Counted from the stretch's first letter, positions 6,132-37,976 are shown. The stretch: 64,000 nucleotides of DNA from Candidatus Endomicrobium embiratermitis (GCA_009781315.1 WQYI01000001.1:310001-374000), one strand, 5' to 3'. Notes: generated by a model not told the origin, from the sequence alone. Program-made: numbers and translations.

Positions 6132-9100
6132 CTAATTTGTCTTTTTCGCCGGCTGCCCGAAACGTATCTGGTGCTGAAGCATAAGTTTTCTGTCGGGCTG
6201 ATGCATGGAAGCTTCGGATTCAAGCTCGTAACTTCCGCTTAAAAACAAATTATTGGCAAGCCTGTATTTCATTTCTATCTCATGCTTTAAATCGAGCCTG
6301 CGTTCCAACTGGTCGTAACGGTCAAAAGTAAGCGAATATCCCAGCAAAAACTGGTTAGTAAGATTTTTTTCCAGAGAATATTTTGTCCCGAGCAGCAAAT
6401 TTACGAAAGACGTATCGTCTACAAGCGCGGGATCTCTGTCCGGAGCGACATACGATACCTTAAAATTGTCAACCAGCCCCGTACGCCTTAAAACCGTTCT
6501 GGTAAAAGGCGTTGCAAAATTTGTGTCAAACAAACGCAGAGCCTGCTGCCTTAAATCAAATTCCGTAATTATGCCTAAAAGAAGTTCTCTATTCCTGCGT
6601 TCCGTAGTCTGCTCGGTTTTTGTGAGTTTAGCTAAAGCCGTCTGGGAATCCATAGTCGGATCATCGCGCGAATAAAACCTGACATTTAAAGAGTTTATTT
6701 CAGACCTGTCTATTACAAGCCTTATGGCTTCTGACACGGACTTATTCGAAGAATACACTTCGCTTTCTCCCTCCGCGGTTATATATATTGAATGATCTTC
6801 CATTATTTCTACTTTGACATTGATTATATTGAACTCTATACCCAAATATTGTATGCTTCCTCTCTGGGAGTCAATAATCCCGCTTGCTCTTATATTGTTT
6901 TTGGTTCCTTTTAAAAATACGCTTCCGTTTATCCATGCGTCGGCAAAAGAATTTTCAAACCTCGTATTTTTCGCGGATTTAAGCTCCAAATCAAATTCCG
7001 TATCTTCGGGAAGAGCCGAATCTCCGCCGGAAGATTTATTTGCCGACGGAAAAGTAAAACGCGTATTTTCAAGAATTACCGTGCCCGCGATTTTAGGTTT
7101 TTCGGCAGATCCCGTCAATGTTATGTCAAAACGCGGTTCGCCGCTCGAATAATCCTGTAATAAGACTTTAGAACCTATAAAACTCGGTATCGCAAGTTCG
7201 GGAATTTTAACCGGAATGCCTTTATTTTCCGTAAAAAAGCGTAAATCAAACTTTTGCGGCGTAAAACCTTCCAAAAATACGGTTCCGGTTCCGGTAATTT
7301 TACCGGTCCCCGACTTGGCTGAAAGTTTGTTTAGCGTAATCAAATTATCAACAATCGAAATGTCCGCGTTAAAATCTTTGATTTTATCCAAATATCTCTT
7401 AACGTCCAAAGAACCGCCGGTTATGGTGAACTGTCCGTTATTTGAAATTTTATCGAAAGTGCCTTTAACGGATCCTTTTAAACTTAATTTGCCTGAAAGC
7501 GGTTCCACATACCCTTGTGAAATATATTTAAAAATTGTCATTTTAGGGTCTTCTATGGAGTAACTTATATTTACCGGCAGCTTCCTCATTTTATTTTTTA
7601 AAGTTGAATCTATCCAAAAAGGGAAAAAACCGCTTGCCAAAACGTTAATTTCGTTCTTTTTATAAATTACGGCTTTTTTTATTTCAGCCCTGTTGTCTTT
7701 GGAAACTATCTCGACTTCAAAATTGTCGTAAGGTATTTCGCTTATTGAACCGCCTGAAGACTGCGTTTTAATTGTCGCGGAAGGATTTGAAGGATTACCT
7801 TCAAAATCCACTCTGAGGTTTGCCGTTCCGGACATAGAAACGGGGATACCGAACGCGTCGGTAATAAAATCCAGACTTAAATCTTTTCCTTTGATATCTA
7901 TTTCTATATTGTCGCTGGCGATGCCGGAATTCATTACAAACAAAGATTTCTCATGCTCGACTATAAAATTTTTTATGAAAACCCCTTCGCCGAAGACAAC
8001 CGTTCCGGATGATTTGAATATATTAGGCTTTGAATTCGCGCTTGCAAATTCAAAAATTTTATTGTGAATATGATAATTAAATTCCGACTGTAAAAGCTTG
8101 TATCTGTTTATCCAAAAATTGTTGAGAGTTATAGTTCCTCTGTATTCCGACCCGCCTTTCTTCTTTTTCATGCTGCCTGACAAAATTACATTGCCGAAAA
8201 CGTCAACAGGACCTACGTGGGTATTTACAAGTTTAAGTTCAAGCCCGTACGAGCCTGTTTTCAAATTGAAACTGCCGCTCGGAGCTTTTATTTCGCTGTC
8301 GGCGATTTTTGCCGAAGCGGAGCTTAAAGAAATTTTATTTTTATATATTTCGAAATTCGATTTAAAACCGCTGATTTTGACATTTTTGACAGATGTATTT
8401 TCTCCGGTCAAAAACATTTTAAGGTGTTTTCTGCCGTTTCTTTGTATAAGAGTTCCGGAACCTGAAAAATCCCCTTTGACGGGAGTTACAAATCCTACGA
8501 ATTTATTTATTAGCTTCTCCGGAATTTTCTCGAAAACAATATTGAGTTTTCCGATTTTCGAATAAACCCCGCTTGCAGATATTCTTGTTTTATCGGAAAC
8601 CAAATCAAATTTTTTAACGCTGATTTTTCCGTTCCTGCTTATAAAATCCGCGTCAAAAGAAAACGGAATTCCTGAGTACTTGGCTTTTTTAATGTTTGCC
8701 GTAATTCGCGCCGACGGGTTTTGAAAACTGCCGTTAAGTTTCACGGCAGAATTCACAGCCGCGGACAATTCGGGATAAAAACCTTTAATATCCGTATTTT
8801 TAAAATTTATCGTTCCGGACAGGTTTTTCTTTACAAAATCAGCTTTGAAATTTCCCGACAAACCGTTTTCGGACTTTAACTCCGAAATCACAAATCTCTT
8901 TGTGGAAATTACAGAATCTGCCGAGAGCGCGGGAAAAGAAATTCCCGAAACGCTCACATTAGTGCCTTCAAATTTACCTTTGACTTCGCGGTTTCCCGCA
9001 AGAGTTCCGTTAAATAAAATTCTGCCGTTAAGTTTAGCGCCCGCGATTTTAATATCTTTCAAATTCATATCAAAAGACGAATCCGGACTGTCTTCCGTAA

Positions 9101-10778
9101 AACCAAATAAAGCGTTTATATATGCCCGAACAACGTTTTTATCGTCTTTCAATACAAACTGTTCTATTGAAATTCTGTTCAGATTTACGTCGCCTTTGGC
9201 TTCAAGTTTTTTGAATTTATTATCGTATATAAAACCGTCAAAAGCCTTAAAGTCAAATTCCGTTGTGCCGTCTTTTTCATATTTTATGCGGCCGTTTGCC
9301 ATACCTTTAATTTTATTTGTCGAACGTCCGAACATTCTTAAGACGTTTGCAATATCCGTATTTACAAACTTAAAATCAGTAGAGAGTATCTGTCTGTCTT
9401 TTATAACGCTGTTAAAAACCACGGAATTATCGCTTTTATAAAAATTAAACACATACATTCCCCCGTTTCGCGCGATAGAGCCGTAAACGTCGGTTTTATC
9501 TATGGTTTTCGTATGAAAATCTCTTAAAACAAAATTAATTTTTCCGCTGTACTCGTCAATCTCTCCCTGAACCGTGATTTTTCCTTTAGGATCCGCTCCA
9601 AGAAGCGCGGCAAAAGGCATTTTGGAAATATCTGCTTCTTTCATATCGGCTTTGATTTCGCCCGTTTTAATATTTCCGGTAAAAGTTCCGGTTGTTTTAT
9701 CGTTGGATACAAGCTTGGCAATATAATCTCCGTCTTGAGAATAATTTATAAAAACCCCGCCTCTTGCGTACAAAATATTGAATTCGCCGTTTCTGCCGAT
9801 TTCGCCGTCTATGCTAAAACCTCCGATATTAAAATTCAAAGTTTTGACGGCATCGGCTTTGACATTTATTCTGTTTTCCGAATTTTTGCGCGAAAAACGA
9901 ATGTCAAGCATCGCTTCTATTTCTTGATTGATCTTTGACAAATCTATATTCGCCAAAACACCGAATTCTCCCGCTGTTTCTGATAAGATTTCAATTCTTC
10001 CGAAATTTCCGTTTAATTCAAACTTAAAATCATTTCCTTTTTTTATCGCCGTTCCCGATATGTCGCTTATGTCAAAAGCTTTGTAAGACATTTTTTCAAT
10101 GTTTATGTTCTGATCTAAATCAAAAGAAAAAATATCAAAGTTTCCGTGTGCGTTAATTAAAGCTTCGATGTCTCCTTCCGACGACAAAGATATATCGGAA
10201 TCGTACAGTCCGTCTTGTTTAAGAGTCATGGACGAGTTAAGCGTAATCGACGAGTTTAAAATAAAATACGACGCGGAAAGACTTATGGCGGGACGCGAAA
10301 CCGACATACGGGTATTATCAATATTGATGCTGTTAGAACCTGTTATAAGAGATATTCTGTCGGCTTGTATATCTACGGGATGTTCAGGCAGCGGAAAAAA
10401 ATTGTTTCGGGGCTCAATAATATTTCCGGCGGACGGCGCATTTTTTTGTATATTATCAAGCAATATCCGGACGTCGGAAATTTCGATGCTTTTTATGTAG
10501 TTCAGCGGAGTCTTAATATGCTTTACGATATTAAGTACTCCGAACTTTATTAAAACTCTTTTTGCCAAAACTTTATTTTCATAATTAAAATCCGTTATAA
10601 TAATTCCTTTGTTAAAAGGCGAAATATAAAAATTGTTAAACCGCATATCTTTGCCGGTCTTTTTTTGTATGTAATTTTGGATATAAGGCACCAGCATCGC
10701 ATTGCGCACATTATACGCCGCGGCAAAAACCGCTATAAGCACCGCTATATATATGATATATCTTATAAATTTCCACAT
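6132..10778 (-). CDS. tamB: TamB-like translocation and assembly module protein (DUF490)
   Basis: A very large (1548 aa) envelope-spanning protein of the TamB/AsmA group, implicated in outer-membrane protein insertion and in moving phospholipid to the outer membrane. There is one N-terminal membrane anchor (about 5-25). A long beta-rich taco-like region follows, with recurrent GxxxFNIxxxKA-type strands (about 60-1250). The DUF490 C-terminal domain (about 1250-1548) contains GSVFLKGTKNNIRASG and a LLGTKYSLEKNLTNQFLLGYS barrel-like motif. Its neighbours bamA and ompH fit the role. No tamA is in the window. The start has only a weak ribosome site. Confidence 0.88.
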   Translation of the reverse strand: MWKFIRYIIYIAVLIAVFAAAYNVRNAMLVPYIQNYIQKKTGKDMRFNNFYISPFNKGIIITDFNYENKVLAKRVLIKFGVLNIVKHIKTPLNYIKSIEISDVRILLDNIQKNAPSAGNIIEPRNNFFPLPEHPVDIQADRISLITGSNSINIDNTRMSVSRPAISLSASYFILNSSITLNSSMTLKQDGLYDSDISLSSEGDIEALINAHGNFDIFSFDLDQNINIEKMSYKAFDISDISGTAIKKGNDFKFELNGNFGRIEILSETAGEFGVLANIDLSKINQEIEAMLDIRFSRKNSENRINVKADAVKTLNFNIGGFSIDGEIGRNGEFNILYARGGVFINYSQDGDYIAKLVSNDKTTGTFTGNIKTGEIKADMKEADISKMPFAALLGADPKGKITVQGEIDEYSGKINFVLRDFHTKTIDKTDVYGSIARNGGMYVFNFYKSDNSVVFNSVIKDRQILSTDFKFVNTDIANVLRMFGRSTNKIKGMANGRIKYEKDGTTEFDFKAFDGFIYDNKFKKLEAKGDVNLNRISIEQFVLKDDKNVVRAYINALFGFTEDSPDSSFDMNLKDIKIAGAKLNGRILFNGTLAGNREVKGKFEGTNVSVSGISFPALSADSVISTKRFVISELKSENGLSGNFKADFVKKNLSGTINFKNTDIKGFYPELSAAVNSAVKLNGSFQNPSARITANIKKAKYSGIPFSFDADFISRNGKISVKKFDLVSDKTRISASGVYSKIGKLNIVFEKIPEKLINKFVGFVTPVKGDFSGSGTLIQRNGRKHLKMFLTGENTSVKNVKISGFKSNFEIYKNKISLSSASAKIADSEIKAPSGSFNLKTGSYGLELKLVNTHVGPVDVFGNVILSGSMKKKKGGSEYRGTITLNNFWINRYKLLQSEFNYHIHNKIFEFASANSKPNIFKSSGTVVFGEGVFIKNFIVEHEKSLFVMNSGIASDNIEIDIKGKDLSLDFITDAFGIPVSMSGTANLRVDFEGNPSNPSATIKTQSSGGSISEIPYDNFEVEIVSKDNRAEIKKAVIYKKNEINVLASGFFPFWIDSTLKNKMRKLPVNISYSIEDPKMTIFKYISQGYVEPLSGKLSLKGSVKGTFDKISNNGQFTITGGSLDVKRYLDKIKDFNADISIVDNLITLNKLSAKSGTGKITGTGTVFLEGFTPQKFDLRFFTENKGIPVKIPELAIPSFIGSKVLLQDYSSGEPRFDITLTGSAEKPKIAGTVILENTRFTFPSANKSSGGDSALPEDTEFDLELKSAKNTRFENSFADAWINGSVFLKGTKNNIRASGIIDSQRGSIQYLGIEFNIINVKVEIMEDHSIYITAEGESEVYSSNKSVSEAIRLVIDRSEINSLNVRFYSRDDPTMDSQTALAKLTKTEQTTERRNRELLLGIITEFDLRQQALRLFDTNFATPFTRTVLRRTGLVDNFKVSYVAPDRDPALVDDTSFVNLLLGTKYSLEKNLTNQFLLGYSLTFDRYDQLERRLDLKHEIEMKYRLANNLFLSGSYELESEASMHQPDRKLMLQHQIRFGQPAKKTN

Positions 10779-23176: not shown

Positions 23177-23377
23177 TCAGTATTCTTCGGGAGAAAGGCC
23201 TTCATAGGCCTTTCTCAATCGTTCCTGATAATCTTCGTTGTTATTTTTACCGCGCTTGCATGCAGTCACAGCCAAAACTACAGTCGAACATACGACCATG
23301 GAAGCAAGAAAAAACTTGCCTAAACACTCGCAAAAACCGTCTATAGACGATTTGCTTTTATTTAACATACCGAACAT
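23177..23377 (-). CDS. Small hypothetical protein with one membrane helix
   Basis: 66 residues, not recognised. A hydrophobic segment FFLASMVVCSTVVLAVTAC (about 22-40) ends in a possible lipobox-like cysteine and is followed by a charged tail ending LSPEEY. It overlaps the preceding gene by 16 nt. The start at 23377 has GAGGA only 2 nt away; the in-frame ATG at 23368, which overlaps the upstream stop, has better spacing. Probably co-transcribed with the H1-like gene and smc. Confidence 0.5.
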   Translation of the reverse strand: MFGMLNKSKSSIDGFCECLGKFFLASMVVCSTVVLAVTACKRGKNNNEDYQERLRKAYEGLSPEEY

Positions 23378-23820
23378 TTCCTCGGAGAAGTCTTTAAAAT
23401 GGTATTTCCGTCGGGAGCGACAAGCCTTGCTGCAATGGAGTATTTGCCCGGAGTAAAATATATCCAGTCAAACCACCAATATCCTCCGCCGAATCTGCAC
23501 GGAATCCATTCGCCGTTATTGAAAGATATTTCGACATAGCCGTCTTGCGACGCACCTACACGTATCGCATAATGCTGACCACAGATTGTTTCCGAATTAA
23601 CGGGGTAATCTATATATAAATGAGCATTCGAATTTGTATTCACAGAAGCAGGAGCAGATTTTTTTAAGGTTACGTCTTTTTTTACAGCCGTTTTAACGGC
23701 TTTCTTTACGACAGTTTTTTTTGAAGCTGCTCTTTTTTTTGCAGGAGTTTTTGTTTTTGTTTCCGCAGTTTGACATATAGTTTCCTGCGCGTCTTTTTTC
23801 TTAACAGATTTTGTTGCCAT
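23362..23820 (-). CDS. Hypothetical protein with histone H1-like basic tail and beta-sandwich-like C-terminus
   Basis: 152 residues, family not recognised. Residues about 1-70 are rich in Lys/Ala/Thr with KKxxxKKAV-type repeats (KTKTPAKKRAASKKTVVKKA), like bacterial H1-type DNA-binding tails. Residues about 75-152 are different: aromatic and glycine-rich (FNNGEWIPCRFGGGYWWFDW, YSIAARLVAPDG), resembling an Ig-like or carbohydrate-module strand pattern. The ATG at 23820 has GGAGGACT, far better than the longer frame from 23859. A strong promoter lies upstream (23878-23906). The combination suggests a nucleoid or surface role; I cannot choose between them. Confidence 0.65.
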   Translation of the reverse strand: MATKSVKKKDAQETICQTAETKTKTPAKKRAASKKTVVKKAVKTAVKKDVTLKKSAPASVNTNSNAHLYIDYPVNSETICGQHYAIRVGASQDGYVEISFNNGEWIPCRFGGGYWWFDWIYFTPGKYSIAARLVAPDGNTILKTSPRKCSVC

Positions 23821-23877
23821 TTTTAAGTCCTCCAAAATAAAATTATGGCGCATATTCACGCCACGCCTATGACATTA

Positions 23878-24012: not shown

Positions 24013-25128
24013 TCAGCTCATTTCGTATATCGCGTATTTTTTATATATTCTCCCGTTCATCATTTCCGCGGTACGCTGAGTCATAATATTGTCGTCAAGA
24101 ACCCATGATAATTCGCAGTGTTTATAGCCGTTTTTCAAAGCGTTTTTAAGCCCTTTTTCATACATTATCGCTTCAATGCCTTTATGCCTGTACTCTTTTA
24201 TGACGCCCATTACCATAAGCCTTAAACTGTCTATTTTTTTTCTGTAATACATAAACTTAAAAAGCCCGAAAGGAAGCAAACTGCCGTTTAATTTTTTTAA
24301 AACCTGATTATAATCCGGCAAAGATATGAGCATCCCGACCGGAGAACCCGCGACAGAGGCAATTATAATCATATCGGGGTCCACAAGCATTTTTAGTTTT
24401 GAAGCTATATAAACGAATTCTTCGTCTGTCCATGGAACAAAACCCCAATTCTTTTCCCATGCACGGTTATATATGGATATAGCGGCTTTTAAATCTTCGC
24501 TGAAAGTCGCTTTTTGGAGATTTTTTATTTTCAAAGTCGGCAATTTCTTTTTTGCCATTTCCACCACGCGCCCGAGTCTGCCGACTCTTGAATCCCCTAC
24601 AACGTCCATATCATACGCGTAAAGCTCTTTAATTTTTTTCAAACCGGACTTTTGTGCAAGATTCAAATAATACTCCGGCGTATAACTCATCATAATGCTC
24701 GGTGAAATTTCAAAACCTTCCGATAAAAAACCGCATTCGTCGTTTGTCGAAGGATTCATCGGACCCATCATCTTATATATGCTGTTTCCCCTAAGCCAGG
24801 ATTTTGCCGCATCAAAAAGAGCTTTTGCGGTTTCAACATTGTCTATACATTCAAAAAAACCGAAAAAACCGCATTTATCATCCTGAAAATTTATGTAATT
24901 GTAATCTATTATGGCGGCGATTCTTCCGGTTATGTTATTGTGTTCGTCATAAGACAAAAACAGTTGGCGTTTTGCATGGAGCCAAAAAGGATTTTTATCT
25001 TCGGAAAGCATATCTATTATTTCTGAAATTAAAGGAGGCACCCACGGGCTGTCTTCGGAATATATTTTCCACGGAAAACGGATAAATTGCCTGAACTGCT
25101 TACTTGTTTCAACTTTTACTATTTTCAT
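24013..25128 (-). CDS. GNAT-fold N-acyltransferase, candidate bacterial ceramide synthase
   Basis: 371 residues, GNAT-like fold of the YghO-like group. Visible pieces are an N-terminal FIRFPWKIYSEDSPWVPPL (about 15-33), GPMNPSTNDECGFLSEGFE in the middle (about 139-157), and a C-terminal acyl-CoA-site-like segment VMGVIKEYRHKGIEAIMYEKGL (about 310-331). It lies 39 nt after a serine palmitoyltransferase-like gene, which follows an NAD-dependent epimerase-like gene. This trio matches the known bacterial ceramide route, in which a GNAT-family enzyme acylates 3-ketosphinganine. That role is inferred from context. Alternative: an unrelated GNAT enzyme. Ribosome site GGGG. Confidence 0.7.
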   Translation of the reverse strand: MKIVKVETSKQFRQFIRFPWKIYSEDSPWVPPLISEIIDMLSEDKNPFWLHAKRQLFLSYDEHNNITGRIAAIIDYNYINFQDDKCGFFGFFECIDNVETAKALFDAAKSWLRGNSIYKMMGPMNPSTNDECGFLSEGFEISPSIMMSYTPEYYLNLAQKSGLKKIKELYAYDMDVVGDSRVGRLGRVVEMAKKKLPTLKIKNLQKATFSEDLKAAISIYNRAWEKNWGFVPWTDEEFVYIASKLKMLVDPDMIIIASVAGSPVGMLISLPDYNQVLKKLNGSLLPFGLFKFMYYRKKIDSLRLMVMGVIKEYRHKGIEAIMYEKGLKNALKNGYKHCELSWVLDDNIMTQRTAEMMNGRIYKKYAIYEMS

Positions 25129-25167
25129 ATTACCCCGGCATTTAAACTTTGAACTTTTCAGTTGTCG

Positions 25168-26352
25168 TTAAATTATTCCCAGCGCTTTTCCTACTTTTGA
25201 GAATTTATCCAGAATGAAATCCAAATGTTCATCGGTATGCGTCGCCATATAAGACGTTCTTATTATAGCCTGGCCTTCAGGCACGGCGGGAGTTACTACC
25301 GGAGACGCGAAAACGCCTTCGTCAAAAAGCATTCTCCACATTTTAAAAGCGACCATATCGCTTCCGACCGTTAAAGGAATTATAGGAGATTGGGAATGAT
25401 TGGTATCGTAGCCCATTGCTTTAAACGCTTCTTTCATTTTGTTTGCCGTATCCATAAGTTTTACTCTTCTTTCCGGCTCCTGAATCATCAAATCCAACGC
25501 CGCGTCTATCGCTCCTACGCACGCGGGAGGAAGGCTTGCGGTAAAAATCATAGGTCTTGCCGCATGTTTTACATAATCGATCACTTCCGCTCTGCTTGCA
25601 ATAAATCCGCCTATTGAAGCAAGCGACTTTGAAGCCGTCGCCATCAAAACGTCGACATTTTCTTCCAAATTAAAATGTGAACCCGTTCCTTTTCCGTCTT
25701 TACCGATTACGCCTATGGAATGAGCTTCGTCGACAAAAAGTCTCGCGCCGTATTTTTTGGCAAGTTTGGATATTTCAGGCAGATTGGCTATGTCGCCTTC
25801 CATGCTGAATATGCCGTCTACTACTATAAGAATTGCTTTGCCTTCGTTTTTCTTAAGAACCCTTTCAAGATCCGCCATATCGTTATGGCGAAACCTGACC
25901 ATATCGCCGAAAGACAAACGGCAGCCGTCTATAATTGAAGCGTGGTCAAGTTTATCGGTCACTAAAATTTCGCCTTTGCCGACAAGACACGACAAAGAAC
26001 CTAAATTCGAATGATGACCCGTCGTAAAAAGAATCGCGTCTTCTTTACCCACAAATTTCGCAAACTTTTTTTCAACTTTTTCATGCAAATCGCTCGTTCC
26101 GTTAAGAAATCTCGAACCTGTTCCCGAAGTCCCGTATTTTTTTGCCGCTTCCATTGAAGCTTCTATTACTTTGGGATGGCTTGCAAGACCCAAATAATTA
26201 TTTGAACATACAACCACTTTTTTGTTGCCGTCAACTATAGTTTCCGGTCCCTGCTGCGATTCTACTCTGTGAAAATATGGATAGACACCTGCTTTTTTAA
26301 GATCGTTAGCACCGTGAAAATCAAGGCATTTCTCAAAAATATCCGCGCTCAT
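25168..26352 (-). CDS. spt: Serine palmitoyltransferase-like alpha-oxoamine synthase
   Basis: PLP enzyme predicted to condense serine with a long-chain acyl thioester to 3-ketosphinganine. 394 residues, about the size of Bacteroidetes SPT. The PLP lysine sits in TASKSLASIGGF (about 240-251), with DEAHSIGVIG before it. Family-wide markers are GVYPYFHRVES, SRFLNGTSDLHEKVEKKF, RHNDMADLE and SPIIPLTVG. Glycine C-acetyltransferase (Kbl) and BioF are the alternatives. No tdh or other bio gene is nearby, and the GVYPYF...SPIIPL pattern fits SPT better. Ribosome site AGGGGA. Confidence 0.8.
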   Translation of the reverse strand: MSADIFEKCLDFHGANDLKKAGVYPYFHRVESQQGPETIVDGNKKVVVCSNNYLGLASHPKVIEASMEAAKKYGTSGTGSRFLNGTSDLHEKVEKKFAKFVGKEDAILFTTGHHSNLGSLSCLVGKGEILVTDKLDHASIIDGCRLSFGDMVRFRHNDMADLERVLKKNEGKAILIVVDGIFSMEGDIANLPEISKLAKKYGARLFVDEAHSIGVIGKDGKGTGSHFNLEENVDVLMATASKSLASIGGFIASRAEVIDYVKHAARPMIFTASLPPACVGAIDAALDLMIQEPERRVKLMDTANKMKEAFKAMGYDTNHSQSPIIPLTVGSDMVAFKMWRMLFDEGVFASPVVTPAVPEGQAIIRTSYMATHTDEHLDFILDKFSKVGKALGII

Positions 26353-26373
26353 TTTTATGCAAGTCCCCTTTAT

Positions 26374-27354
26374 TTAGAAATACTTATTCGATAAATACCA
26401 ATTGTATGTTATTTTAGAAGCAATTTCAAGCTTTGTAAACTCCAGACCTAAGTCTTTTTTCGCGGCGCTGTTATCTGCAGTCCAACGTTCCTGAAGCATT
26501 TCCGTAATTTTCTGTTTATTTAAAACTGCCGCCTTTTTCGTAATATAAGAAAAAGATTGGACTGCTATTCCGGCAAGCTTAAAAATGAAGTCCGGCAGAG
26601 GCACGGGAACAGTCCTTCTGCCCATACTTTCAGCTATAATTCTGCCGACATCCGACCATGTATAAGAAGTTTCTTCCGCTACATAATAAGTATTGTTATC
26701 GGTTTTGGAATTTTCAAGGGATAAAACCGCAGCTTTTGCAACGTCTTTCACATAGACAAGCTGAATAAGCCTTTTTTTAATTGTTATTGGTCTCAAATGT
26801 TTGTGAACCAGATTGAAAAATATAAAAATGTCTTTGTCTCTGGGACCGTAAACCGACGCCGGCCTTAATATAGTAAAAGGAACTTTTCTGTTAAGCGTAT
26901 TTTTTAATTCCCTTTCGGCTTCAAGTTTGCTTAAACCATAATCCGACACGGGATTCTCTTTATCGTTTACTTTTCTCAAGGTCTCGGAAACGCTCGGTCC
27001 CATAGCGGCCTGCGTAGAAATAAACACGAATTTTTTCAGATTCGGATTGGATTTCAAAACAGCTTCGCACAATTTTTTGGTATTTCCAACGTTGGATTTA
27101 AAATATCCTTCTATGTTCATAGCTCTGACGGCGCCGGCGCAATGTATTACAGCGTCAACATCTTTTACTGCCTCATTCAAAAACTTCTCATCGCTTAAAT
27201 CGCCGTACTTATAAGAAACGGAAATCCCGTTTAACCAATTCAAATTAGACGTTTTTCTGACTATACAGGTAACTTGATGCTTAGCGGCAACTAAAGCTTC
27301 TGCTATATGACTGCCTACAAACCCGTTTGCCCCGGTAAGCAAAATTTTTGACAT
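26374..27354 (-). CDS. NAD-dependent epimerase/dehydratase, candidate ceramide (3-keto) reductase
   Basis: 326 residues, extended short-chain dehydrogenase. Rossmann motif TGANGFVGSHIAEAL (about 7-21). The catalytic tyrosine-lysine pair is in VSDYGLSKLEAEREL (about 136-150), and RPASVYGPRD follows. The family covers sugar epimerases and the bacterial CerR type that reduces the keto group during ceramide synthesis. Immediate linkage to spt (21 nt) and the GNAT gene favours CerR. GAGG ribosome site. First gene of the three. Confidence 0.75.
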   Translation of the reverse strand: MSKILLTGANGFVGSHIAEALVAAKHQVTCIVRKTSNLNWLNGISVSYKYGDLSDEKFLNEAVKDVDAVIHCAGAVRAMNIEGYFKSNVGNTKKLCEAVLKSNPNLKKFVFISTQAAMGPSVSETLRKVNDKENPVSDYGLSKLEAERELKNTLNRKVPFTILRPASVYGPRDKDIFIFFNLVHKHLRPITIKKRLIQLVYVKDVAKAAVLSLENSKTDNNTYYVAEETSYTWSDVGRIIAESMGRRTVPVPLPDFIFKLAGIAVQSFSYITKKAAVLNKQKITEMLQERWTADNSAAKKDLGLEFTKLEIASKITYNWYLSNKYF

Positions 27355-34504: not shown

Positions 34505-35737
34505 TTAAACGGCGCATCTTGAGGCTTTTATTTCTTTTATTATGTTAGGAATTATTTCGTACAAATCGCCTTCCAAAGCATATGTCGCGGTCTGCATCAT
34601 AGGACAAGTCGCGTCTTTATTTATCGCGATTATTGTATCTGAGGAACTCATTCCGACCATATGCTGGATTTGCCCGGAAATTCCGCAGGCTATGTAAATC
34701 TTCGGGGCAACGGTTCTGCCCGTTTGCCCTACCTGATGTGAATAAGGTATCCAGTCGGAATCTACCGCAGCTCTTGACGAACCTACGGCTCCTCCGAGAA
34801 GTTCGGCAAATTCTTCAATCAGTTTAAACCCTTCGGGTTTACCCAATCCCCTGCCGCCTGAAACTATTATGTCCGCGTCGGAGATATTTATATGAGCGCT
34901 GGAATCTTTTATAAAACCTAAAAACTTCGTTCTGTTTAACAATGTCTTTGCGTCAAATTTGCTTTCAATTATTTCGCCTTTTCTTCCTGTTTCGGCTTTA
35001 GCCTCTTTAAAAACTTTATGTCTTACGGTAGCCATCTGGGGACGGTGTCTCGGAGTGAGAATTGTCGCCATAATATTTCCGCCGAAAGCAGGTCTGGTTT
35101 GCTGGAGATTTCTTGTTTGCGGGTCTATATCCAAAGCCGTGCAGTCCGCCGTTAAACCGGTTTGGATTTTAGCGGCTACTCTTGAAGCAAAAGAACGTCC
35201 TATATTTGTCGCGCCCATAAGAATAATTTCAGGCTTTTCTTTTTCTATAAGCTGAGTAAGGATTGAAGCATAAGGATCATCCTGAAACTCAATAAAAATC
35301 GGATCATCGAAAACATAAACTTTCTCAGCGCCTCTGTCTATCAAATCCTGAGCTTTTGACTTTATATTATCGCCTATTAAAACCGCGCTTAAAGGAACTC
35401 CAAGCTGTTTTGCAAGCCTTGAACCTTCGTTTAAAAGCTCATATACAACATGTGAAATTTCGCCGTGTCTCTGCTCGGCGTAAACCCAAACGCCTTTATA
35501 CTGATTTTTATCAACATCTGCTTTCGGGGCGTCTTTAGTTATTTCTATCGCGGCAAATTTGCACGCTTCCTTACAGGCTCCGCAATACGTGCATTTGTTT
35601 AAATCTATAACGGCTAACTTCATTTTTTTAGGATGTTCCGGCCTTTCGACCATAGAAACTGCGCCAAACGGACAAGCGTCCACGCACATTTTGCAGCCTA
35701 TACATTTATCTGCTAAAACCTGAATACTGTTTGACAT
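34505..35737 (-). CDS. etfA: Electron transfer flavoprotein alpha subunit with N-terminal ferredoxin domain
   Basis: 410 residues from the ATG at 35737, with AAAGGAG; the longer frame to 35863 translates repeat E12. Residues about 1-65 hold two [4Fe-4S] clusters (CIGCKMCVDACP, CTYCGACKEACK). EtfA proper follows, with the FAD site near the C-terminus: SGGRGLG, VGSSRAAVDSDW, YSHQVGQTGRTVAPKIYIACGISG (cited in parts). Ferredoxin-type EtfA is known from CarE and LctC of acetogens, where the flavin complex bifurcates electrons. Third gene after acyl-CoA dehydrogenase and etfB. Confidence 0.93.
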   Translation of the reverse strand: MSNSIQVLADKCIGCKMCVDACPFGAVSMVERPEHPKKMKLAVIDLNKCTYCGACKEACKFAAIEITKDAPKADVDKNQYKGVWVYAEQRHGEISHVVYELLNEGSRLAKQLGVPLSAVLIGDNIKSKAQDLIDRGAEKVYVFDDPIFIEFQDDPYASILTQLIEKEKPEIILMGATNIGRSFASRVAAKIQTGLTADCTALDIDPQTRNLQQTRPAFGGNIMATILTPRHRPQMATVRHKVFKEAKAETGRKGEIIESKFDAKTLLNRTKFLGFIKDSSAHINISDADIIVSGGRGLGKPEGFKLIEEFAELLGGAVGSSRAAVDSDWIPYSHQVGQTGRTVAPKIYIACGISGQIQHMVGMSSSDTIIAINKDATCPMMQTATYALEGDLYEIIPNIIKEIKASRCAV

Positions 35738-35755
35738 TTTAAAATACTCCTTTAA

Positions 35756-35884
35756 CAGAAAAGTGAAAAGTGTAAAGTTAAAAGTGAAATTATTGTGTTT
35801 TCGCAAAGCGAAAACATTTAATAAATTTCGGCTTTGCCGAAATACAACATTTCCACTTTTCACTCTTCACTTTCAACTTTGTTG
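35756..35884. repeat. 7-mer arm element E12 (GAAAAGT family)
   Basis: Left arm GAAAAGT GAAAAGT GTAAAGT TAAAAGT GAAATTA, then TTGTG. Hairpins GTTTTCG-CAAAG-CGAAAAC (35797-35815) and ATTTCGG-CTTTG-CCGAAAT (35825-35843), then the inverted arm. It lies between etfB and etfA. Confidence 0.9.
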
Positions 35885-35885
35885 T

Positions 35886-36671
35886 TTAAATTACGCCTGT
35901 CTCCGACAACTTATCTACCAAAGATTTTGCTACAACGGCGGGTTCTCCGCTGAATTTTTCTCCGCCCGCTCTTTGCGGCGGCGTAAATATTTTCATAACC
36001 TGGGTAGGCGAACCGTTTAGTCCTATTTTTTGAGCGTCCGCGTTTATAGCAGTTGCCGTAAAGGTTTTAATAACGGCTTTCTTTGCCGCCATTTTTCCTT
36101 TAAGAGAGGCAATCCTCGGATTATTTATTTCTTTAACGACGGTTAAAAGAACCGGAACCGGAGATTCGATTAAATCATAACCGTCTTCCATCATTCTTTC
36201 GACTTTTATGGACTTATCGTCAATGGCTTCAATCTTTTTGACGTAAGCAACGTGAGGAATATTAAGCATTTCGGCTATTCCGGGGCCTACCTGCGCCGTA
36301 TCGCCGTCCGTAGCCTGTTTTCCGCAAAAAATCACGCCGTAATCGCCTATTGCTTTTATAGCCGAAGCCAAAGCGTAAGACGTGGCAAGAGTATCTGCTC
36401 CGCCAAAAGCCCTGTCGCTTACCAAAACAGCTTCATCGGCTCCTCTTGAAATTGCTTCTCTTAAAGCCGATTCAGCCTGGGGAGGACCCATTGTCACGAC
36501 AATAACTTTTCCGCCGGTTCTTTCTTTAAGACGTACGCCTTCTTCTATAGCGTATTCGTCAAAAGGATTGATTATAGATTCAACGCCTTCTCTTTTAAGA
36601 CGTCCCGTTTCCGCGTCAATCTGCACATTTGTTGTGTTTGGGACTTGTTTAATGCATACTATTATGTTCAT
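35886..36671 (-). CDS. etfB: Electron transfer flavoprotein beta subunit
   Basis: 261 residues. CIKQVPNT at the N-terminus and NPFDEYAIEEGVRLKE (about 36-51). The motif CGKQATDGDTAQVGPGIAEMLN (about 115-136, quoted from the family loop) is the form seen in electron-bifurcating ETFs, where it contacts the bifurcating FAD. It pairs with etfA downstream and acyl-CoA dehydrogenase upstream. GAGGG ribosome site. Confidence 0.93.
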   Translation of the reverse strand: MNIIVCIKQVPNTTNVQIDAETGRLKREGVESIINPFDEYAIEEGVRLKERTGGKVIVVTMGPPQAESALREAISRGADEAVLVSDRAFGGADTLATSYALASAIKAIGDYGVIFCGKQATDGDTAQVGPGIAEMLNIPHVAYVKKIEAIDDKSIKVERMMEDGYDLIESPVPVLLTVVKEINNPRIASLKGKMAAKKAVIKTFTATAINADAQKIGLNGSPTQVMKIFTPPQRAGGEKFSGEPAVVAKSLVDKLSETGVI

Positions 36672-36696
36672 ATTAAAAACCCTCTTAATTAACTAC

Positions 36697-36787
36697 GATG
36701 TTGGGAAGGTGAGAGGTTGAGAAGATGAGCAACGGCAAAAACTTAAACAGCCACAGCTCCTCTCAACCTCTCATCATCTCATCTTCT
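36697..36787. repeat. 8-mer arm element E13 (GATGATGA family)
   Basis: Left arm GATGTTGG GAAGGTGA GAGGTTGA GAAGATGA, then GCAACGGC. On the other strand the right arm is GAAGATGA GATGATGA GAGGTTGA GAGGAGC. It directly follows the acyl-CoA dehydrogenase stop codon. Confidence 0.88.
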
Positions 36788-37976
36788 ATTTCGTCTTTGC
36801 AGCTGATTCTTTTATAAGGTTCAGCGCAATTTCATTTTTCTGTATCTGGCTTGTGCCTTCGTATATTGTCGTAATTTTGGCGTCTCTCATCATTTTTTCA
36901 ACAGGATATTCTCTGCTGTATCCGTATCCGCCGAAAATCTGAACGGCATTTGTAGTAACTTCCATAGCGACTTCGGAGCAATAAAGTTTCGCCATCGCAG
37001 ACTCTTTACTTGTGCGTTTCTCAGGCTCTTTTGTGAGCTTGTTTGTTGCCACGTCTATCATTCTTGAGGAAGCATAAAGCAATGCTCTTGCAGCTTCAAC
37101 TTTTGTAGCCATGTCGGCTAACATATGCTGTATTCCCTGAAATGAAGCTATTGCCTGGCCGAACTGGACTCTTTTTCTCGCGTAATCAACGGCTTCGTCA
37201 AGAGCGCCAGCGGCAATACCTAAAGCCTGCGAGGCAACTCCCGGACGGGAACTGTCAAGCGTAGCCTGGGCAATCATCAGTCCGTGACCTTCTTTTCCGA
37301 GCAGCTGATCTTTATGAACTCTGCAATTATTGAATATCAATTCTCTGGTTGAAGAAGCTCTGATACCCATCTTTTTTTCTTTTTTGCCGAACTCAAAACC
37401 GGGCATTCCTTTTTCAAGAATAAAGCACGAAATTCCTCTCGCGCCTCTTGAAGGATTGGTTTTCGCAAAAACCGTATATGTTTCAGCGTCGCCGCCGTTA
37501 GTTATAAAGCATTTTGTGCCGTTTAAAACGTAATAATCGCCGTCTTTAACCGCAGTTGTAGTCATTCCGGTAGCATCAGAACCCGCGCCCGCTTCGGTCA
37601 AACCGAAAGCTGCAAGTTTTTTTCCTGAAGCTATATCGGGAAGATATTTTTTCTTCTGGGCTTCATTTCCGGCTATTATTATGGGAAGCGTTCCGAGCGC
37701 CGTGCACGCAATCGACAAAGCGACAGCTCCGTCAACTTTACAAAGTTCTTCTACAACCAAGACCAAACCCATAATACCAAAACCCATTCCGCCGTATGCT
37801 TCGGGGATATAAAGCCCGCACAAATCAGCCTGCGCAAATTCTTTTACCATTTCCCACGGAAACTCTTCTTTTTCGTCGTAGTGTTCCCTCATTGGTTTCA
37901 TTTTTTCAATAGCGATGGTTCTTGCCGTCTCAACCATCATCTGTTCTTCTTCAGACAAAAAATATTCCATTACCAT
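36786..37976 (-). CDS. Acyl-CoA dehydrogenase
   Basis: FAD enzyme acting on an acyl-CoA; with the two ETF genes it probably forms a CarCDE- or Bcd/Etf-like complex reducing an enoyl-CoA. 396 residues with FGLTEAGAGSDATGMTTTA (about 126-144), the YARKRVQFGQ motif and the C-terminal IYEGTSQIQKNEIALNLI. The catalytic glutamate is the E of YEGTSQ. The substrate (crotonyl-, caffeyl- or another enoyl-CoA) cannot be told from sequence. ATG at 37976 with AAGGGG. Confidence 0.9.
   Translation of the reverse strand: MVMEYFLSEEEQMMVETARTIAIEKMKPMREHYDEKEEFPWEMVKEFAQADLCGLYIPEAYGGMGFGIMGLVLVVEELCKVDGAVALSIACTALGTLPIIIAGNEAQKKKYLPDIASGKKLAAFGLTEAGAGSDATGMTTTAVKDGDYYVLNGTKCFITNGGDAETYTVFAKTNPSRGARGISCFILEKGMPGFEFGKKEKKMGIRASSTRELIFNNCRVHKDQLLGKEGHGLMIAQATLDSSRPGVASQALGIAAGALDEAVDYARKRVQFGQAIASFQGIQHMLADMATKVEAARALLYASSRMIDVATNKLTKEPEKRTSKESAMAKLYCSEVAMEVTTNAVQIFGGYGYSREYPVEKMMRDAKITTIYEGTSQIQKNEIALNLIKESAAKTK

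Follow-up and report, generated by a model that had tools for sequence, protein, structure and literature searches.

Three consecutive genes of Candidatus Endomicrobium embiratermitis, cerR, spt, and bcerS, very probably form an operon for ceramide biosynthesis. They lie at 24013-27354 of the window, which is the whole 64,000-nucleotide stretch of DNA analysed here (GCA_009781315.1 WQYI01000001.1:310001-374000). The gene content and order, the family and fold memberships, the placement of Spt in the tree, and the conservation of the cluster within the lineage and in other phyla are shown here, while the substrates, the order of acylation and reduction, the acyl donor, and the production of the lipid are inferred. 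What makes the operon noteworthy is less the enzymes than the lineage and its spt-less endosymbionts.

The three genes are all on the minus strand and are transcribed in the order reductase, Spt, and GNAT acyltransferase. The original prediction described three consecutive, tightly spaced genes, and three open reading frames are indeed found there with only short gaps between them (Table 1). The trio is flanked by the hydrogenase-maturation genes hypD and hypE on one side, and by a small lysine-rich gene (p165) followed by smc on the other. The gaps to the flanking genes (115 bp to hypE and 153 bp to p165) are wider than the gaps within the trio, which suggests that the three genes are transcribed as a unit. 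No dedicated AcpR or AasR gene adjoins spt in the window cluster, and neither the gene layout nor the Pfam and NCBIfam searches reveal a tdh gene in the neighbourhood of spt. The flanking gene p165 (23362-23859) encodes a 165-residue protein whose N-terminus is rich in lysine and alanine and resembles histone H1, and whose C-terminal domain is conserved. This protein has no match in Pfam or NCBIfam, and in much of the Endomicrobiaceae its gene separates bcerS from smc.

Table 1 Positions of the predicted ceramide genes in the window and of the spt remnants in three endosymbiont genomes
Feature	Position	Strand	Description
cerR-like gene	26374..27354	-	326 aa; NAD(P)-dependent SDR, epimerase family; proposed 3-oxo-(ceramide) reductase
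cerR-spt intergenic gap	26353..26373	-	21 bp; fits a single transcript
spt	25168..26352	-	394 aa; predicted serine palmitoyltransferase, PLP-dependent alpha-oxoamine synthase
spt-bcerS intergenic gap	25129..25167	-	39 bp; fits a single transcript
bcerS	24013..25128	-	371 aa; GNAT-fold N-acyltransferase, YghO / CC_1154 family; proposed ceramide synthase
G010 spt remnant	L154:7876-8588		cerR and bcerS 714 bp apart; stops and fragments still recognisable as spt
G080 spt remnant	L175:9895-10137		243 bp between cerR and bcerS
G059 spt remnant	L176:7721-8147		homologous to the G080 remnant, 86% over 185 bp

The best NCBIfam match of Spt is NF047600 (SerpalmtaseCFB) with 506 bits, compared with 387-391 bits for the Kbl and bioF models. 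The score is below the equivalog cut-off of NF047600 (640 bits), which is reached by none of the searched genomes of the class, and the window Spt is therefore not to be filed as that equivalog. The best PDB match is the SPT of Sphingobacterium multivorum (E 4e-115, 388 bits). The PLP lysine K242 and the residues H137, D208, H211, and R365 of the window Spt align with K244, H138, D210, H213, and R367 of the S. multivorum enzyme. Since these residues are common to other alpha-oxoamine synthases, they indicate activity and not specificity; the signature residues that separate Spt from Kbl and BioF are uninformative here (4/7 columns). In an IQ-TREE phylogeny of 48 alpha-oxoamine synthases, from which the sulfonolipid-type synthases (PDB 28eh) were left out, the window Spt forms a clade with S. 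multivorum SPT, the Spts of Sphingomonas, Prevotella, and Parabacteroides, and the cluster-linked Spts of many phyla (support 100/99). Outside this clade are E. coli Kbl, E. coli BioF, a Thermus enzyme, and the genome's own second alpha-oxoamine synthase.

The same comparisons bear on the amino acid used. The operon could make a ceramide-like lipid from an amino acid other than serine, for example alanine, giving a 1-deoxyceramide, or cysteate, giving a sulfonolipid, and we consider this unlikely. Spt homologues are reported to use alanine (PMC11334938), a cysteate-using relative of the sulfonolipid type (28eh) is among the PDB matches, and the active-site residues mapped above do not settle the amino-acid substrate. 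However, 28eh matches the window Spt with 250 bits, as against 388 bits for S. multivorum SPT, and the window Spt is inside a clade that holds serine-using enzymes.

It is less likely again that the PLP enzyme is another alpha-oxoamine synthase, either a Kbl of threonine catabolism or a BioF paralogue, with an unrelated epimerase and an unrelated acyltransferase as neighbours. The scores of the Kbl and bioF profiles reflect a general family similarity, which is consistent with such an assignment, but a placement of the PLP enzyme inside Kbl or BioF, which the original prediction had named as the outcome speaking against it, is not what the tree gives. The enzyme groups with verified Spts, and the AU test rejects a grouping of the Endomicrobia enzymes with the Kbl clade (p 6.9e-5) as well as with the BioF clade (p 2.9e-5). 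A constraint that unites the Endomicrobia Spts with all Kbl and all BioF sequences together is not rejected (p 0.65), which bears only on how the deepest branches of the Spt clade are ordered. Kbl is ruled out by the tree, the AU test, and the lack of linkage to tdh; in accordance, PMC11257099 reports that Endomicrobiaceae have no pathway for threonine utilisation. BioF is ruled out by the tree and the AU test, and the genome has a separate BioF, its second alpha-oxoamine synthase, on contig C3 (419 bits). The conserved linkage of the gene to those for bCerS and CerR also argues against both assignments and for a serine palmitoyltransferase.

The bCerS protein (ACYLTRANSFERASE) has no sequence match of its own in Pfam, NCBIfam, or PDB. 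It is a full-length homologue (32-37% identity) of cluster-linked YghO-type proteins from E. coli, Klebsiella, Pseudomonas, Sphingomonas, Roseomonas, Rubrobacter, and Streptomyces, and its gene is single-copy in the genome. An orthologue with 74% identity passes the Pfam GNAT cut-off (PF00583), and the AlphaFold2 model of bCerS (pLDDT 91.5, pTM 0.89) has the tandem GNAT acetyltransferases 5kf1 and 7q3a as its best Foldseek matches (E ~2e-13), which bears out the GNAT label first given to the third gene. PMC9386255 equates E. coli yghO with Caulobacter CC_1154, whose acyltransferase is needed to form dihydroceramide. Judged by sequence and predicted fold, bCerS is a GNAT-fold acyltransferase of the CC_1154/YghO family, the link to Caulobacter going through YghO.

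CerR belongs to the epimerase-family SDRs (PF01370, 131 bits). When the E. coli ceramide-cluster dehydrogenase is compared with the genome, CerR is the best and almost the sole match (E 6.5e-25 versus 5e-4 for the next protein), and its gene adjoins spt in relatives. Its PDB matches include NDUFA9-type subunits of complex I; homology to NDUFA9 has been reported for CerR, and so has a periplasmic localisation of the protein in Caulobacter (PMC11087976). The window CerR is a divergent SDR in a family with many paralogues. The best NCBIfam match of the SDR is the hopanoid epimerase HpnA, which we do not adopt because the score of 124 bits is far below the cut-off of 368.

In the proposed pathway, Spt would use L-serine (possibly alanine) and a long-chain acyl thioester to form 3-oxo-sphinganine. 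The long-chain base would then be N-acylated by bCerS, which is of the tandem-GNAT type and has no relation to the ceramide synthase of eukaryotes. CerR would reduce the 3-oxo group, and the resulting dihydroceramide would go to the cell envelope. That acylation precedes reduction is presumed; the order is disputed even in Caulobacter, for which localisation data favour the one given here (PMC11087976). The acyl donor is probably acyl-CoA or a housekeeping acyl-ACP, because the operon has no ACP or acyl-ACP synthetase gene of its own nearby. The genome has three full-length AMP-binding enzymes, whose best matches are models of acyl-ACP/phospholipid acyltransferase and of short-chain acyl-CoA synthetase; an enzyme of the acyl-ACP-synthetase/phospholipid acyltransferase type is thus encoded.

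The cluster also occurs in known sphingolipid-type loci, and each of the three proteins belongs to the family expected of it, as the original prediction of a match to Spt, CerR, and bCerS had it. The pathway of Caulobacter crescentus (CC_1162 spt, CC_1164 cerR/epi, CC_1154 bcerS, CC_1163 AcpR, CC_1165 AasR) uses the same three core enzyme families, a judgement that rests on the homologues in E. coli and Sphingomonas. In contrast to Caulobacter, the window cluster consists of the three core genes alone in tight order, with no specialised ACP or acyl-ACP synthetase adjoining, and it is not of the rhodobacterial five-gene type, in which AcpR and AasR lie beside spt. Records of E. coli, Klebsiella, and Pseudomonas contain a five-gene version with an acyl carrier protein and an acyl-AMP ligase (yghO-spt-acpR-epi-aasR), and in E. 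coli YghO sits beside spt, the ACP, the dehydrogenase, and the acyl-AMP ligase. These clusters bring homologues of all three window proteins together, but they differ from the window cluster in having five genes, with bcerS divergently transcribed, and their Spts are on a separate rhodobacterial branch of the tree. DNA matching the spt of the cluster in an E. coli plasmid record (L056) is present in 4105 of 5426 complete E. coli genomes; among the matches listed are genes annotated 'serine palmitoyltransferase', and the adjacent yghO is the bCerS homologue. The presence of spt is also reported for E. coli BL21(DE3) (PMC9386255).

Among the Bacteroidota Spts (S. multivorum, Prevotella, and Parabacteroides), the S. 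multivorum enzyme is the closest solved structure to the window Spt. The Parabacteroides record resembles the window in having no dedicated ACP beside spt, whereas spt and bCerS of Prevotella are at separate places in the genome and those of the window are in one operon. Annotated records of Rubrobacter, Aureispira, and Streptomyces have the three genes side by side. As in the window, the plasmids of Rubrobacter radiotolerans and Streptomyces sp. NBC_01001 carry consecutive spt, bCerS-like, and SDR genes, but in the order spt-bcerS-cerR instead of cerR-spt-bcerS.

With the acyltransferase alone as query, we collected 80 named loci (L061-L140). In 54 of them, from at least 15 phyla, spt lies within 1 kb of bcerS and is always codirectional with it; cerR lies within 5 kb in 43. 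Since spt and bcerS are also adjacent in 33 of the 41 genomes of the class, the arrangement is not due to chance. The remaining 26 loci have a bCerS-like gene with no spt within 1 kb, and therefore membership of the acyltransferase family alone is no proof of ceramide synthesis. Such loci (e.g. L070, L081, and L090) are found in Aminicenantota, Latescibacterota, Spirochaetota, and others. Probably the bCerS family has other functions as well, or the genes of these loci are scattered over the genome.

The assembly to which the window belongs has 25 contigs and a size of 1.9 Mb. Its named relatives, among them Candidatus Endomicrobiellum devescovinae (acyltransferase 76%) and a MAG of an Endomicrobium sp., are Elusimicrobiota, which places the window genome in the Endomicrobiaceae (Elusimicrobiota). 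Within the family, spt is kept in 61 of 77 genomes and at least part of bcerS in 65. The pathway is kept in endosymbiont assemblies of 0.5-0.6 Mb (G051 and G072), so that ceramide is likely important to these cells. All three reading frames are intact in the window genome and in every genus-mate, at 69-90% protein identity, indicating purifying selection, and it is hardly credible that the trio in the window genome is the remains of a ceramide pathway, decaying or no longer expressed, even though spt or the whole cluster is eroded in some endosymbiont relatives.

The bacterial ceramide pathway itself is already known, and for Elusimicrobiota we found no prior report of it in the searched literature. 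Spt-like genes are reported in MAGs of 38 phyla, and Elusimicrobiota are not named in the main text of that study (PMC11334938). The literature search found no paper that pairs Elusimicrobia with serine palmitoyltransferase, and the main genome paper on Endomicrobia does not mention sphingolipids or ceramide, so the remark that sphingolipids would be notable for this lineage is fair.

Three Endomicrobiellum genomes from endosymbionts of termite-gut flagellates (G010, G080, and G059) form one clade (99 SH-aLRT), and in all three spt is eroded, with remnants left between cerR and bcerS (Table 1). No other copy of spt is present in G010 or G080, both of which are 99% complete. In these two genomes, cerR and bcerS are free of stops, and the dN/dS values between G010 and G080 are 0.15 for cerR and 0.17 for bcerS, on a par with the neighbouring smc (0.17) and DUF362 gene (0.18). 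Thus, cerR and bcerS are under purifying selection in G010 and G080 despite the eroded spt. In G059, cerR and bcerS are both broken. The remnants shared by G080 and G059, together with the grouping of all three genomes in one clade, suggest that spt was lost in their common ancestor; if so, selection has maintained CerR and bCerS after the loss of Spt. The losses in this clade may instead be independent.

Host long-chain bases suggest themselves as the obvious candidate substrate for CerR and bCerS in the absence of Spt. As a tentative explanation, the spt-less symbionts might acylate and reduce long-chain bases of the flagellate host in a split pathway, or bCerS and CerR might have a second role that is independent of Spt. 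The lineages that lack spt alone provide a natural test of whether endosymbionts use host long-chain bases.

The operon predicts sphingolipids in the cell envelope of the Endomicrobiaceae, which include endosymbionts of flagellates and a free-living bacterium in culture; cultivation is reported for Endomicrobium proavitum. The outer membrane in which they would sit is odd, as LptD and BamBCD are reported absent throughout the family (PMC11257099). Genes for lipid A are present in the same genome, and ceramide would therefore be additional to lipid A; the window encodes LpxC (411-1229) and an LpxD-type hexapeptide acyltransferase (1240-2274). The idea that ceramide substitutes for lost LPS finds no support, since LpxC has been lost without the ceramide genes and the ceramide genes without LpxC, and the window genome has LpxC. 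LpxC is missing and the operon is kept in G043, whereas LpxC is kept and the operon is missing in G056 and G058.

Two further regions of the window are of note. A 1548-residue protein with no Pfam match is encoded at 6132-10778, upstream of envelope genes. Genes for a ferredoxin-domain-bearing EtfA, EtfB, and an acyl-CoA dehydrogenase are located at 34505-37976 and possibly encode an electron-bifurcating complex of an anaerobe.
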